Shown here: positions 54,053 to 59,762 of the stretch, piece after piece | Layout of the letters: the number at the start of each line of letters is the position of its first letter | Position numbering within the stretch: position 1 is the first letter of the stretch | Origin: Hymenobacter siberiensis | Lineage (GTDB): Bacteria > Bacteroidota > Bacteroidia > Cytophagales > Hymenobacteraceae | Direction of reading: 5' to 3' | Assembly: GCF_018967845.1 (NCBI RefSeq) | Contig: NZ_JAHLZZ010000001.1 | Coordinates: forward strand, 2,976,001-3,040,000 | Length of the DNA: 64,000 nt | The notes under the pieces: generated by a model | What the model was told of the DNA's origin: nothing | The model's input: the letters and a program-made list of their open reading frames with translations, nothing else | The model's database searches: none | Made by a program: the position numbers and the translations under genes

Positions 54053-54618
54053 GCGTTAGGAGTTTAGGCGCGGCCTCGAATGGCAGTGAAATATATCTGA
54101 TTAAGCTACTGTTACTTTTTTGTCTGATTTGGAGCTTTACTGTGCAGGCGCAGAGCAGCGGCAACTCATATTCTGCGCCGGGAATGCCGCTGCATTTGCA
54201 GCACGGCGTGCCAGTAGTGCCAGCGCGGTCCATAAGGAAGACAGCCGCTGCAGAACGACTCCATTCGGTGCCGAAAGCTTCACCCATACTAGCTCGTTTT
54301 TGGCACGAAACAGATTCGGGAGCCCGGCAGGCAGGATATGCTCAGTTTATTCGTACGATTCAGCATCTGACCAAGTACCCGGTTCCGGCGCTACGTGCTC
54401 AGACGGAAGGGCGCATTTTTGTCAGGGCCATCATTTCGGCCGATGGAATACCGGCAAAAATTGAGGTCGTTAAGCGAAATATGACTGCCGGAGCTTCTGA
54501 AGAATCATTGAGTTTGTTGGATGCGGAATCAATACGAGTGATTAAGTCGATGAAATTTGAACCTAAAGCCAACGGGGCCGACACGGTTACTGTGCCAATG
54601 GGGTACTTTATTCAGTAG
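54049..54618 (+). CDS. exported TonB C-terminal-domain-like protein (second of tandem pair)
   Basis: A 189-residue protein from GTG 54049 that overlaps the previous stop (GTGA), implying coupled translation. A signal (IYLIKLLLLFCLIWSFTVQAQ) is followed by ILARFWHETDSGARQAGYAQF, homologous to the preceding gene, and a TonB_C part with EGRIFVRAIISADGIPAKIEVVKRNM...AESIRVIKSMKF. It is AT-richer than its neighbour. Function unknown. It is convergent with, and overlaps by 11 bp, the class IV aminotransferase gene. Confidence 0.75.
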   Translation: MSVRSLGAASNGSEIYLIKLLLLFCLIWSFTVQAQSSGNSYSAPGMPLHLQHGVPVVPARSIRKTAAAERLHSVPKASPILARFWHETDSGARQAGYAQFIRTIQHLTKYPVPALRAQTEGRIFVRAIISADGIPAKIEVVKRNMTAGASEESLSLLDAESIRVIKSMKFEPKANGADTVTVPMGYFIQ

Positions 54619-55426
54619 CCTGACCCAAATTCATCAAAATGGTAATCAGTCCATTGTGAATAGGTTTGTAGGCTGTGCCAGCTACTGAATGTACTATTCT
54701 CACCGCCGCCACATTAGCCGTGAAAACGGCGTCGGCGGCCAATAGCTCTTCTCTAAAAAACAACCCTTCCCGGCACTCCATACCCGCCGCCCGCGCTGCC
54801 CGCAGCACCTGCGCCCGGCGCACGCCCGCCACGCAGCCCGTTTCGAGCGAAGGCGTAAACAGCACCTCATCTTTCAGCCAAAAAATAGCCGCCGCGCCCG
54901 CCTCTGCCACATGCCCGGCCGCATCGCAGAGGATGATTTCATCGAGCCCGCGCTGCTGCCGTTCGTGCGCGGCCCGCACGTATAGCCACGACTGCGGGCC
55001 TTTGCAAAAGCTTAGCGGCGAATGAATAGAGTGGTTTTCGACGGCAAAATCAGCATTCGCGATGGCTGAGTCCTCAGGCAAGAAAGCTTCGGCGGTGGCC
55101 AGCCATTCGGCGGCGTCGGTGGTGGGGGTGTAGCGGCCGCCGCCGGTGCGCCAAAGCTGCAGGCGCAGGCGGGCGGCGGGTAGCTGGTTGGCGGTAGCGA
55201 GGCGGGTCAGGGTCGCTTCTAACGCTTCGGGGGTGGCCAGGGCGGCGGGCAGCGTGAGGTACAGGGCGGCGGCGGCCTGTTGCATGCGGGTGTGGTGGTC
55301 GGCGGCGAGGTGCAGGCGGCCTTCGGCAAAAATCAGGGTTTCGAAAAAGCCATCGCCAAAAGCCAGGCCGCGGTTGGGCAGGGGCAGGGTGGCGGTGGGC
55401 AGCAGGATATCATTCAACAAGAGCAT
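54608..55426 (-). CDS. class IV aminotransferase (aminodeoxychorismate lyase / D-amino-acid transaminase type)
   Basis: A 272-residue fold-type IV PLP enzyme, start at ATG 55426 (MLLLNDILLPTATLPLPNRGLAFGDGFFETL). Visible are FGDGFFETL, the R-x-L-x-Q-x-W strand region, the Lys in SFCKGPQSWLYVRAAHE (catalytic Lys candidate) and DEIILCDAAGHVAEAGAAAIFWLKD. PabC (4-amino-4-deoxychorismate lyase) is the best guess because no BCAT-specific motif is seen, but the exact substrate is not determined. Confidence 0.8.
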   Translation of the reverse strand: MLLLNDILLPTATLPLPNRGLAFGDGFFETLIFAEGRLHLAADHHTRMQQAAAALYLTLPAALATPEALEATLTRLATANQLPAARLRLQLWRTGGGRYTPTTDAAEWLATAEAFLPEDSAIANADFAVENHSIHSPLSFCKGPQSWLYVRAAHERQQRGLDEIILCDAAGHVAEAGAAAIFWLKDEVLFTPSLETGCVAGVRRAQVLRAARAAGMECREGLFFREELLAADAVFTANVAAVRIVHSVAGTAYKPIHNGLITILMNLGQATE

Positions 55427-55460
55427 AGGTGCAAGGTAGGACAGCTGCTGCCCGGACACA

Positions 55461-55513: not shown

Positions 55514-58102
55514 TTACTGCACCTGAATGCGGCGCGTAACTGCTCCTTCGGTGTAGCTCACGCGCAACAGGTACGTACCGGTAGGCAAGCCTTCGAGGGC
55601 CAGCGTGGCCGGGGCCGCGCCGCTGATGGGTTGATGGCGTACGGTGCGGCCGAGCACATCGAGCAGGTCGAGGGCCTGCGGATGCGAGCTGCCATCGGGA
55701 GCCACGGTAAGCGTGCCATGGGCAGGCACGGGCCAGGCTAAAGTACGGTCGGCTACAGCCTTAGGAGCAGCCGCGTGCAGCACGTTGGTAGCAACGGGTG
55801 CAACCCAAATTGTCGTATTGTCAGCCCTGCGCGTAGCGCTGAATGGGCCACCGTTGGTGCCTGGGCCGATAACAACGTAAATCCGGCACCATTGCCGAAG
55901 GGTGGAAGCGACAATTTGGGTTGCACCCGTAGCAACGATGCGAGCTGCCGCAATGCTTGGTGCCCCGCTCAGGCTGGAAAACGTACCGCCCGCCACAATG
56001 GCGCCATCAGGCTGCACCAGCAGCGTGTTTACGGTGCTGTTAGGTGTAGCAGTGGCCGCGTACGTGCCATCGGCGGCACCAGTGCTGAGCAACCGGGCCA
56101 GGTTGCTGGGCAAATTTGCACTAGAGAAGCTGCCGCCTAGCAAAATGCGATTATTGGGCTGCAGCAGCACCGAGTAGATGGTGCCAGTAGAAGTAGGGGG
56201 CACAAAGCCGGCATCGAGGGTGCCGCCGGGGTTCAGGCGGACAATATTGGCACGGGCAGTACCGGCATAGGCCGTAAAGCTGCCACCTACCAGCACGTTG
56301 CCATCGGGCTGCACGGCTAGGCTGCGAAGCGTAGCGCTGGTACTTGTGAAGGCGCTACCGGTGAAACTTGCATCGATTGCGCCGGTGCTCTCGAGGCGCA
56401 CCAATGTCCGAATGGCAGTTGTGCCGCCTGCCGGAATCGCCGAGCCGGCAACCAGCAGCTTGCCGTTGGGTTGCTGGGCCATGGCCTGAAAGGCCGTCAG
56501 ACGTCCCGAGCCGGTGGTGTTCAGCACAAAGGAATTATCGGGCGCACCGGTTGGCATTAGCCGAAACAGGCCCTGCGTATTAGCGGGTGCACCATTGAGG
56601 CTATAAGCTGACCCACCAACCAGAATGCGGCCATCGGCCTGCAGCAGCAGCCGGGTGAGGGTGCTGCCAGTCAGGCTGGGGGCAGTGAAGGTATTATCGG
56701 GGATGCCCGTGGCCAGGAAGCGTTGGACCGAAGCACGCGTAGCCGCCACAATACGTCCATCGGGCTGCAATGCGAGGTCAACAACGGGAGTAGAGATGCC
56801 CACCGAAGAGCTGAAAGTTGCGTCCAGCGTTCCGTTTACATTCAGGCGAGCCATGCTCCGGCTGACCTGGCCCCCGACCTCGTAAAATGAGCCCCCAATC
56901 ACGAGTTTACCATCCGGCTGGCGCACCACGGCAGCTACGATGCCATTATTTTGGAAAATGGGTTGAAAAGCCGGGTCAACTGCACCGGTGCTGGTGAGTT
57001 GCAGCAATTGCCGGTCTGTTACGCCATTAAAACTGGTAAAGGAGCCCCCGACCAGAATATTGTTGTTGGCCAGTACCCTCACGGTGCGGGAATTGCCGTT
57101 GGGGCCGGTGCCCATCTGGAAAGTGGCATCGACCGTGCCGTTGGGGTTGAGGCGGGCCAGCGACGGCAGAGTCGAGGCATTGATAGGAGCACTCAGTACC
57201 AGAATCTTCCCATCGGACTGCAGCGCAAAAGGCGAGGCAAAGCCGGAGTAGATGTAATTAGGGTACGGTGCGGTAGGCGTATACGCGAAGGTGTTGTCGA
57301 GGCTGCCATCGGGCATGAGGCGCAACAAGTTATCGTAGCTGCCACCGGCTACCAGAATCCGGCCATCGGCCTGCACGGCTATTTGGGCCGCTTCTTCGTT
57401 GGTACGCAGGGCGGCCGCAAAAGTGGGGTCGAAGCTACCGTCGGTGTTCAGCCGTGCAAGTCCATTAGCTGGATTTCCGTTATAGCTGAAAAAATAGCCG
57501 TTGATGAGAATTTTACCGGTGGGTAAAACCGTGATACCCTCAATTTCATCAGTGCTACCGCTGCCAGCATTAAAGGTGGAATCAACTGTCCCTGAGGCGT
57601 TGAGCCGCACGATGTTGCCTGTAGTAACGCCATTGAAAGCACTAAACGAGCCCACTACAATGAATTGGCCATTGGCAAGCTGGGCCGCATGGTTAATGTT
57701 CCCTCCCGCCGGGCCAGTGCCTGCATCAAAGGTGGCGTCGGCCGTACCGGTTGCGTTCAGGCGTAGTAGCCCGGTGCGTGTCACGCCATTGGCTATTATC
57801 GGGTTGCCAACTCCTAAGTAAGAAACCAGCATCAATTGTCCATTGCTAAGCGCCTCTACGCCGCGAGTAGTCACTCCCGTACCCAGGTTCTGCTGAAATG
57901 CTGCATCCAGCGTACCATTGGTATTTAAGCGCACTACGGAGCTCGTAGTAGTGCCATTGACCCGGCTGTAAGCGCCCGATACAACGAGCTTGCCATCGGC
58001 CTGCTGCAATGACGAGTACACATCACCGGAATTGTAAATACCTGCTGGCGTAAATACAGGGTCCACGGTTTGGGCTGTCACCGGCTGCCATAATAGAGCC
58101 AT
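55514..58102 (-). CDS. secreted delta-60 repeat protein with T9SS type A sorting domain
   Basis: An 862-residue protein built of about 15 delta-60-type repeats, recognised by recurring blocks of the form VRLNxNGTLDAxFxxGxG and QPDGKxLVxGxF. The last ~75 residues (LAWPVPAHGTLTVAPDG...LDLLDVLGRTVRHQPI...LPTGTYLLRVSY) are a type IX secretion C-terminal domain, so it is exported by T9SS. The annotated N-terminus MALLWQPVTAQT is very short for a signal peptide and lies next to the inverted-repeat element at 58100-58331, so the real start region may be disrupted. Function unknown; possibly adhesive. Confidence 0.85.
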   Translation of the reverse strand: MALLWQPVTAQTVDPVFTPAGIYNSGDVYSSLQQADGKLVVSGAYSRVNGTTTSSVVRLNTNGTLDAAFQQNLGTGVTTRGVEALSNGQLMLVSYLGVGNPIIANGVTRTGLLRLNATGTADATFDAGTGPAGGNINHAAQLANGQFIVVGSFSAFNGVTTGNIVRLNASGTVDSTFNAGSGSTDEIEGITVLPTGKILINGYFFSYNGNPANGLARLNTDGSFDPTFAAALRTNEEAAQIAVQADGRILVAGGSYDNLLRLMPDGSLDNTFAYTPTAPYPNYIYSGFASPFALQSDGKILVLSAPINASTLPSLARLNPNGTVDATFQMGTGPNGNSRTVRVLANNNILVGGSFTSFNGVTDRQLLQLTSTGAVDPAFQPIFQNNGIVAAVVRQPDGKLVIGGSFYEVGGQVSRSMARLNVNGTLDATFSSSVGISTPVVDLALQPDGRIVAATRASVQRFLATGIPDNTFTAPSLTGSTLTRLLLQADGRILVGGSAYSLNGAPANTQGLFRLMPTGAPDNSFVLNTTGSGRLTAFQAMAQQPNGKLLVAGSAIPAGGTTAIRTLVRLESTGAIDASFTGSAFTSTSATLRSLAVQPDGNVLVGGSFTAYAGTARANIVRLNPGGTLDAGFVPPTSTGTIYSVLLQPNNRILLGGSFSSANLPSNLARLLSTGAADGTYAATATPNSTVNTLLVQPDGAIVAGGTFSSLSGAPSIAAARIVATGATQIVASTLRQWCRIYVVIGPGTNGGPFSATRRADNTTIWVAPVATNVLHAAAPKAVADRTLAWPVPAHGTLTVAPDGSSHPQALDLLDVLGRTVRHQPISGAAPATLALEGLPTGTYLLRVSYTEGAVTRRIQVQ

Positions 58103-58331
58103 TGCACCAAATGCACAGTTAGCGTTGCTATAGTTGAGCTAATATTCACAACGCATTGACCAATAACATGCTTTGAACAAGGCACGTTATGAGGAGGCTG
58201 TTGTAACTATTTGAGCAGCCAGTAAATCATTTCACTGAATCCTGGCGCTGGAAAGGGCCTTCCGATTCAGCAATCGACACATGTTTTTTAAGCTCAACCA
58301 TAGCAACGCTAACTACGCATTTGGTGCAATG
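58100..58331. mobile_element. 232-bp MITE-like element with 41-bp inverted ends
   Basis: Bases 58100-58140 and 58291-58331 are inverted copies with 3 mismatches in 41 bp. The inside has no open frame. No target-site duplication is visible. Such a structure is typical of a MITE or IS remnant. It overlaps the 5' end of the delta-60 gene, whose annotated start ATG (58100-58102) uses the last bases of the left arm. Confidence 0.6.
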
Positions 58332-58388
58332 ACCTTATATAATTTATTGAGCAGTTTATAGACTCGATTAAGGTTAAGTAGATGGGGT

Positions 58389-58467
58389 TGTTTAGAAAGT
58401 CACAAAAGGTACTCAACCGGTCATGCTGCGCTGCGCGCTGCATGACCGTTCGGGGACTTTCTAAACA
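58389..58467. repeat. nested palindrome, GTCATGC (REP-like) family
   Basis: Outer arms TGTTTAGAAAGTC (58389-58401) and GACTTTCTAAACA (58455-58467); inner arms GGTCATGC (58419-58426) and GCATGACC (58440-58447). Confidence 0.8.
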
Positions 58468-58522
58468 GCTTCGATGAATTGTATTGAAGCTGTTTAGAAA
58501 GTCGGGTCTTTTGCGGGTCTGT

Positions 58523-58604
58523 CATTCTGAGCGCGGCGAAGGACTTTCTTACACTTAAATGAGGCTATGCAGCCGCGATAAGGTCCTTCGCCGCGCTCAG
58601 GATG
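58523..58604. repeat. 22-bp inverted repeat (CTGAGCGCGGCGAAGG)
   Basis: Bases 58523-58544 and 58583-58604 are reverse complements with one mismatch, loop of 38. Part of the same repeat cluster upstream of the dprA stop. Confidence 0.8.
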
Positions 58605-58634
58605 CCCATAATATTGACTTTCTAAGAAGCTTTA

Positions 58635-59762
58635 TTACACCAACGCAAACTTCTTGCCCGGCAGCGCCCGCACCACGCCCCGAAACTCCAGCCCCAGCAG
58701 CAGCGAAGCCACGGCGTGAATGGCCAGCTGGGCTTTCCAGGCCAGGTCGTCCATCTGGGCTTCGCGGCCCGTGGCCGCAGCCAACACGCTGATGAGGGCA
58801 AATTCCTCGACCGTAAAGTCATCGGCCGAGTAAGAAGGCGCCGGCTTAAACTTGCCGGACTGGTGCAGGGCCGCGTCCCAGTTCAGGAGCTGCTCCAAAT
58901 CGAGCGGCTCCTGATAAAGCGCTGCTTTGTTGCTCTTGATAAGGGCATTGCAGCCTTCGGAGGCGGCCGAGCCCAGATTGCCGGGCACGGCCAGCACGTC
59001 GCGGTCGTAGCTCAGGGCCAGCTCGGCGGTGATGAGGGCGCCGCCCTTTATGGCCGCTTCCACTACCACCGTGCCATCGGATAGCCCGGCAATGATGCGG
59101 TTGCGGGCCGGGAAATTGTAGCGGTCGGGCGGGGTGCCGAAGGGGAATTCGGTGAGCAGGCCGCCTTGCTCGCGCATTTTCTCGGCGGTTTTGCGGTGCA
59201 CGGCAGGATAGATGATATCCAGGCCGGTGGCCATTACGCCCACGGTTTCCAACCCTTCTTGCAGGGCGGCGCGGTGGGCCATGATGTCGATGCCGTAGGC
59301 AAGGCCGCTTACTACCAGTGGCTGATGGGGGAGCAGTCCTCTCACGATGCGCTCAGTTTGCTCGCGCCCGTAGTCGGTGGCCTGGCGGGTGCCCACGAGG
59401 GCCACAATTTTGGGCGCGTTTAGGTCGGCCGTGCCCTGGTAGTAGAGAATGGCAGGCGCATCGGCAATCTGCTTGAGGCGGCTGGGGAAGCGCTTGCTGG
59501 TGTAGAACAGAATTTCTACGCCTTCTTTTTGGGCCTTTCGCAAGTCCATTTCGGCCTTGCGGAAGGCTGCTTCGCGTGCATTGCCTGTGAGGATAGCCAC
59601 GGTGGCCGCGCCCACACCAGGAATGCGGCGCAACTTGCCCGGCGGCATGGTAAGCACGGTTTTGGCCGCGCCTCCGTAGCTCATCAATTGCCGCGTGAGC
59701 TGTGGGCCAATGCCGGGTAGCAGCGTGAGGGCCAGCTCGTGGAAAAGGGTATCGTTGGTCAT
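58635..59762 (-). CDS. dprA: DNA-processing protein DprA
   Basis: A 375-residue protein that protects incoming single-stranded DNA and loads RecA in natural transformation. An N-terminal SAM/HhH-like region (LLPGIGPQLTRQLMSYGG, IPGVGAATVAIL) is followed by the Rossmann-like DprA core: VALVGTRQATDYG, VVSGLAYGIDIMAHRAAL, VMATGLDIIYP, GTVVVEAAIKGGALITAELAL. A C-terminal winged-helix part (TVEEFALISVLAAATGREAQMDDLAWKAQLAIHAVASLLLGLEFRGVV) closes it. Downstream of the MerR gene with 9 bp between them, so co-transcribed. The window shows no other com genes. Confidence 0.96.
   Translation of the reverse strand: MTNDTLFHELALTLLPGIGPQLTRQLMSYGGAAKTVLTMPPGKLRRIPGVGAATVAILTGNAREAAFRKAEMDLRKAQKEGVEILFYTSKRFPSRLKQIADAPAILYYQGTADLNAPKIVALVGTRQATDYGREQTERIVRGLLPHQPLVVSGLAYGIDIMAHRAALQEGLETVGVMATGLDIIYPAVHRKTAEKMREQGGLLTEFPFGTPPDRYNFPARNRIIAGLSDGTVVVEAAIKGGALITAELALSYDRDVLAVPGNLGSAASEGCNALIKSNKAALYQEPLDLEQLLNWDAALHQSGKFKPAPSYSADDFTVEEFALISVLAAATGREAQMDDLAWKAQLAIHAVASLLLGLEFRGVVRALPGKKFALV

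Follow-up and report, generated by a model that had tools for sequence, protein, structure and literature searches.

A MITE with ISAs1-type ends at the 5' end of a delta-60 repeat gene of Hymenobacter siberiensis: probable loss of the native leader and supply of the start codon by the element

Main finding

In the stretch of 64,000 nucleotides of Hymenobacter siberiensis DNA analysed here (the window), the gene of a delta-60 repeat protein begins inside a short mobile element. This element, MITE-1, is very likely an ISAs1-type MITE; in the same reading, the native leader of the gene is gone and the start codon is supplied by the tip of the MITE. The ATG of the delta-60 gene (58100-58102, minus strand) is situated within the terminal repeat of MITE-1, where it constitutes bases 7-9 counted from the tip. 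According to the preliminary description of this DNA, the element abuts the first ATG; the contact between the two stands, but the ATG lies inside the terminal repeat and not beside it, and the origin of this ATG, and with it of the first three codons of the gene, in the element's own DNA had been missed. The high confidence expressed here covers the three parts of this core reading together; the alternatives discussed below question single steps of it and overlap with one another, such that the weights given to them do not add up to a whole.

Extent, structure, and copies of the element

MITE-1 (58094-58337) is an inverted-repeat element of 244 bp, the ends of which were set by comparing its genomic copies. 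Its inverted arms (58093-58140 and 58291-58338) are 48 nt in length, 88% complementary, and 150 nt apart; together with the copy comparison, they yield a gene-proximal (58094-58140) and a gene-distal (58291-58337) terminal inverted repeat. The best ungapped inverted-repeat score within 58090-58345 is 32, compared with a maximum of 12 and a mean of 7.6 in 200 dinucleotide shuffles. Arms and shuffles thus bear out the inverted-repeat segment noticed earlier, whereas the length of 232 bp given for it has to be corrected by 12 bases. Positions 58103-58558 are free of ORFs of at least 60 aa, in agreement with the earlier observation that the element has no open frame, and MITE-1 carries no transposase gene. 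Concerning structured RNA, no Rfam match at the gathering threshold was obtained for 57900-58700.

The search for other copies that had been proposed yielded, at the DNA level, 10 full copies in the window's own genome (G000, 4.95 Mb), including that of the window, with which the nine others share 91-96% identity, and nine copies in G072, another genome belonging to this species. The copies of G000 measure 236-245 bp, and most of the 10 have the ends TAGGGYCATTGCACCAAATGC in common; the window copy ends with TAGAGCC... and ...GACCTTA, most copies with TAGGGYC... and ...CCCTA. Flush target duplications occur in three of the 10 G000 copies (9 bp in L005, 9 bp in L008, and 10 bp in L006); the window copy and the six remaining ones possess no flush duplication of 4-13 bp. 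A clean insertion of the window copy is, for want of a target duplication, open to doubt, and recombination between two MITE copies would give the same picture. At L009:1480-1497, a second partial tip (TAGGGCCATCGCACCAAA) is found directly beyond one MITE-1 copy, as if one copy had landed beside the end of another. Concerning the dating of copies by empty sites, the 500-bp left flanks of L003 (sought in G072) and of L088 of G072 (sought in G000) were matched in the other strain and the right flanks were unmatched within the 100 kb covered; when 700 bp of the right flank of L003 were compared with G072, the matches were mostly to repeats.

Judged by its sequence and that of its copies, MITE-1 is a MITE: it is short (below about 600 bp), possesses terminal inverted repeats and no transposase, is present in multiple near-identical copies at unrelated sites, and has an autonomous partner.

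The probable ISAs1-family partner and the distribution of the ends

This partner is a complete IS of 1189 bp in the same genome (G000:C1:4525968-4527156). Its transposase of 373 aa matches NF033564 (ISAs1 family) with 333 bits (cut-off 70) over profile positions 1-314 of 314, and also PF13808 and PF01609. Between copy L005 of MITE-1 and the partner IS, 30-31 bp are in common at each end; for the interior, BLAST gave no match. Target duplications of the ISAs1 family are 8-10 bp long. Set against this expectation, three MITE-1 copies exhibit 9-10 bp, seven exhibit no flush duplication, and none is present at the IS itself, which has no flush target duplication as judged by eye. MITE-1 resembles an ISAs1-family IS (with a DDE transposase and DDE_Tnp_1_assoc) in both of its ends and may do so in the duplications of 9-10 bp seen at three of 10 copies, whereas the absence of a transposase, the length of 244 bp, and the unrelated internal DNA set it apart. 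MITE-1 would be a non-autonomous element that depends for its mobility on transposase supplied in trans by an ISAs1-family IS, a pairing inferred from the common ends. In G072, the counterpart of the partner transposase consists of two overlapping pieces, one of which contains an in-frame TAG.

Matching DNA at E <= 0.001 is found in nine of 120 same-genus genomes (G000 and G072 included, scoring having been limited to six candidates per genome). An exact scan for the tip in a public genome collection returned one record, Hymenobacter terricola 3F2 contig14, in a collection outside of which close relatives of the window genome may lie. Transposase relatives adjoin such ends in five other genomes (G018, G048, G077, G095, and G115), and paired MITE-1-like ends are situated 211-245 bp apart in G025, G048, and G101. 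In G025, which represents another species, two matching element ends (L122:3024-3236) lie 213 bp apart about 1 kb downstream of a delta-60 homologue.

The delta-60 protein and its leader

The delta-60 gene (55514-58102, minus strand) encodes a protein of 862 aa with delta-60 (DUF5122) repeats and a T9SS type A sorting domain. Its identity, as it had been stated before, is confirmed by matches to the profiles PF17164, TIGR02608, and TIGR04183; the C-terminal sorting domain reaches 28.6 bits with TIGR04183 (cut-off 23) and 27.2 with PF18962 (cut-off 27). A match to the protein exists in 117 of 120 same-genus genomes, with very unequal strength. The protein of the window begins with MALLWQPVTAQTVDP..., and translation reproduces the short leader MALLWQPVTAQ reported earlier.

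Leaders of homologues were collected from 28 loci (L032-L059), of which L042 and L055 were excluded, their matches starting within the protein, and L056 because of its unclear leader boundary. The 25 homologues used are the best-scoring matches, orthology not being proven, and their start codons were chosen by eye (the GTG start of L034 is written as M). Up to the AQ/GQ boundary, the leader comprises 22-26 residues in all 25 homologues, compared with 11 (MALLWQPVTAQ) in the window. Equally, each of the 25 exhibits a basic start, with one to three K/R within the first six residues, and a 9-residue hydropathy that peaks at 2.0 or more, whereas the window protein has no such residue and a peak of 0.98. 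By hydropathy and charge count, the window protein appears to lack the N-terminal Sec signal peptide expected of T9SS cargo.

The residues LWQPVTAQ (58070-58093, minus strand) appear to be the surviving C-terminal part of the ancestral signal peptide. In translation they resemble the ends of homologue leaders, e.g., that of L036 (...PLLWQPVAAQTLDP), and the leader of the G021 homologue, which is 51% identical to the window protein, reads MKKLQLLISGLCLVPLLWQPVAAQ, which identifies LWQPVTAQ as the tail of the old leader. Since homologue leaders have 22-26 residues and the window retains the last eight only, the gene lacks its native start and around 16 codons. The earlier proposal that the original 5' end of the gene gave way to the element is thus supported, with basic starts in the homologues, several of which are adjacent to dprA; homologues with the same short leader, the finding that would have spoken against it, were absent among the 25. 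The product of the delta-60 gene is probably no longer exported.

The junction with dprA

The upstream neighbour of the delta-60 gene is dprA (58635-59762, minus strand; TIGR00732 with 235 bits, cut-off 191), and tblastn of relatives indicates the same neighbour there: 14 loci from other species carry a dprA match next to a delta-60 homologue. In eight of these 14 relatives, less than 200 nt separate dprA from the aligned part of the protein, and this interval contains a leader with its start codon (seven times ATG, once GTG); in the other six, the interval amounts to 374-1972 nt, in at least one of them owing to a match that starts within the protein. A short spacer between dprA and delta-60 is therefore common, not universal. 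In the window, the distance from dprA to the delta-60 ATG is 532 nt and is made up of palindromic repeats, 49 bp of A+T-rich DNA, and MITE-1.

REP-like palindromes occupy positions 58387-58632 between dprA and MITE-1. Their unit of 86 bp (58387-58472) has inverted arms and recurs at least 39 times elsewhere in the genome, a lower bound given that 40 of 218 candidates were scored; the hairpin is 61 bp longer in G072. The 49 bp between MITE-1 and the palindromic repeat (58338-58386; 69% A+T) may, by their position, constitute a remnant of the spacer between dprA and delta-60. A simple insertion, with the old leader left beyond MITE-1, was considered and rejected, since these 49 bp contain neither an ATG or other start codon nor a recognisable leader; one of their frames reads ...YKLLNKLY, without a start, and is treated as chance. 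Between G000 and G072, synonymous sites differ by 9% in dprA (58635-59762) and by less than 1% in the delta-60 gene and in the gene at 54608-55456, a contrast that suggests a recombination boundary near the palindromic repeats.

The proximity of these repeats gives some room to a different order of events, in which the leader was lost before the arrival of MITE-1 through another event (e.g., one involving the repeats at 58387-58632) and the MITE inserted later at the breakpoint. The palindromic repeats between dprA and MITE-1 are just 49 bp away from the element, and a window copy without target duplication would fit such a course. However, G072 possesses the same junction of MITE-1 and delta-60, and in both strains the join is exact at the MITE tip, which is explained more simply if the MITE made the break; an earlier loss is hence considered unlikely.

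Later fate of the gene

In G000, a second element, MITE-2 (55796-55928), of 133 bp length, is inserted in frame within the delta-60 gene. It exhibits inverted arms (terminal inverted repeat GGGTGCAACCCAAATTGTCG) and is flanked by an 8-bp duplication (GTAGCAAC at 55788-55795 and 55929-55936), the site being empty in G072; it adds 47 codons ahead of the sorting domain. MITE-2 is present in three copies in G000, that of the delta-60 gene included, and its ends match those of an IS (L144) with a 411-aa transposase that is closest to ISKra4 (184.9 bits, under the cut-off of 205). In G072, the delta-60 frame comes to its end after codon 608, within an inserted IS5-family element that has a transposase and 18-bp inverted ends; this insert is located at L116:9496-10339, with a 4-bp overlap of CTAG.

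Between G000 and G072, 811 codons of the delta-60 gene exhibit 5 N and 4 S changes (pN/pS 0.46; binomial p 0.26 against the neutral share); alaS, by comparison, has 1 N and 24 S, and dprA 4 N and 27 S (Fisher test against delta-60, p 0.002 and 0.016, respectively). Three other neighbours have few changes (0 N and 1 S; 0 N and 0 S; 2 N and 0 S, the last leaning to N). The changes in the delta-60 gene fit relaxed constraint and, the counts being too few, equally fit weak constraint.

Compatibility of the N:S changes with weak purifying selection is at the same time a point in favour of a functional start born from the MITE, i.e., of a protein translated from the captured ATG that works in the cell or is exported by another route, and so are the intact ORF of 862 codons in G000 and the preservation of its frame by MITE-2. 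Such a protein would, however, have to do without n-region charge and hydrophobic core, and in the sister strain G072 an IS disrupts its gene. Furthermore, a promoter in the MITE was sought by means of TAnnTTTG, the promoter motif of Bacteroidota, and no exact box was found in 58001-58640 on either strand. Taken together, a working product of the captured start is regarded as rather improbable.

The start codon and its probable capture

Read outward, the tip of MITE-1 provides ATG GCT CTA (Met-Ala-Leu; 58094-58102, minus strand) in the window, i.e., the start and two further codons, and ATG GCC CTA or ATG ACC CTA, with single-base variants, elsewhere. An outward ATG is present in 26 of 26 ends of 13 elements (10 MITEs of G000, two of the nine of G072, and one IS), as found with an end-motif search pattern that itself contains ATG and allows one substitution. 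Of the 20 MITE-1 ends in G000, that of the window alone leads into a very long ORF (the second-longest has 142 codons), so that the capture of a start looks like a single lucky case and not like regular behaviour. That the outward ATG at both MITE ends would serve as a portable translation start, turning exported T9SS cargo into new cytoplasmic proteins that persist thereafter, appears highly doubtful.

Upstream of the ATG, the frame stays open over 12 codons, which begin with CTC, are preceded by TAG, and read LNYSNANCAFGA; it had been remarked correctly that no start codon occurs there before a stop. The non-standard start that had been offered as an alternative, for which this open frame might speak, is next to impossible, since all 12 codons are MITE DNA, none of them is ATG, GTG, or TTG, and the extension is not signal-like. 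An ancestrally short leader with MITE-1 as a neutral neighbour, for which no support was found, can practically be dismissed as well, being contradicted by the leaders of 22-26 aa in 25 of 25 homologues and by Met-Ala-Leu being MITE sequence that is read outward at other copies too.

Proposed history

For the reading preferred here, that of an ISAs1-type MITE capping a gene deprived of its leader, the following course is proposed. With an ISAs1-family transposase acting in trans, MITE-1 would have entered the junction of dprA and delta-60 in a common ancestor of the two sequenced strains. DNA is missing from the 5' end of the gene; an insertion together with a small deletion is the manner in which it would have been lost, taking from a Sec signal peptide of about 24 residues the native start and around 16 codons, which would have comprised the n-region and the greater part of the hydrophobic core. 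The outward ATG, nine bases from the MITE tip, would by chance have been in frame with the remnant, such that the ORF was re-capped as MAL-LWQPVTAQ.... With neither a basic n-region nor a hydrophobic core, the protein should remain cytoplasmic and be useless as T9SS cargo, and the delta-60 gene would consequently be drifting. To this drift could be assigned the two events observed, the in-frame entry of MITE-2 in G000 and the disruption of the gene by the IS5-family element in G072.

Comparison with known elements and meaning

The situation is most similar to that reported for MITEAba12 of Acinetobacter, whose outward terminal repeat could provide a start and the first four residues (MQQS) of adjoining genes at three reported sites (PMC6382973). 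In both elements, the terminal repeat contains an outward start codon, and the duplications of MITEAba12 are mostly 9 bp; differences concern its length of 113 bp, its 16-bp repeats, its other IS parent, and an outward promoter, predicted and supported by RNA-seq (PMC6382973). Section 11 of that article, on the fusions, does not describe replacement of a signal peptide (PMC6382973). Given this precedent, the start capture by MITE-1 would be an event of a known kind (PMC6382973). Rickettsia palindromic elements, as outlined in a review (PMC10969869), are short palindromic mobile elements forming in-frame fusions with host genes, a likeness that concerns MITE-2. According to the same source, these elements code for a conserved peptide, and among the first ones reported nearly half are located within ORFs, whereas MITE-1 gives a start and two codons only (PMC10969869). 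The portions considered of three further articles (PMC3189936, PMC5756416, and PMC5771137) contain nothing decisive. The open-access literature searched yielded nothing on inverted-repeat transposable elements of Hymenobacter, and the joint search no title with ISAs1 or MITE.

The present data document a family of ISAs1-type MITEs in Hymenobacter, together with a likely source of transposase in the same genome. They further indicate that a MITE can cap a decapitated gene, such that an ORF caller gives a full-length protein, the export signal of which is probably lost. Surveys of T9SS cargo could miscount genes re-capped in this manner.
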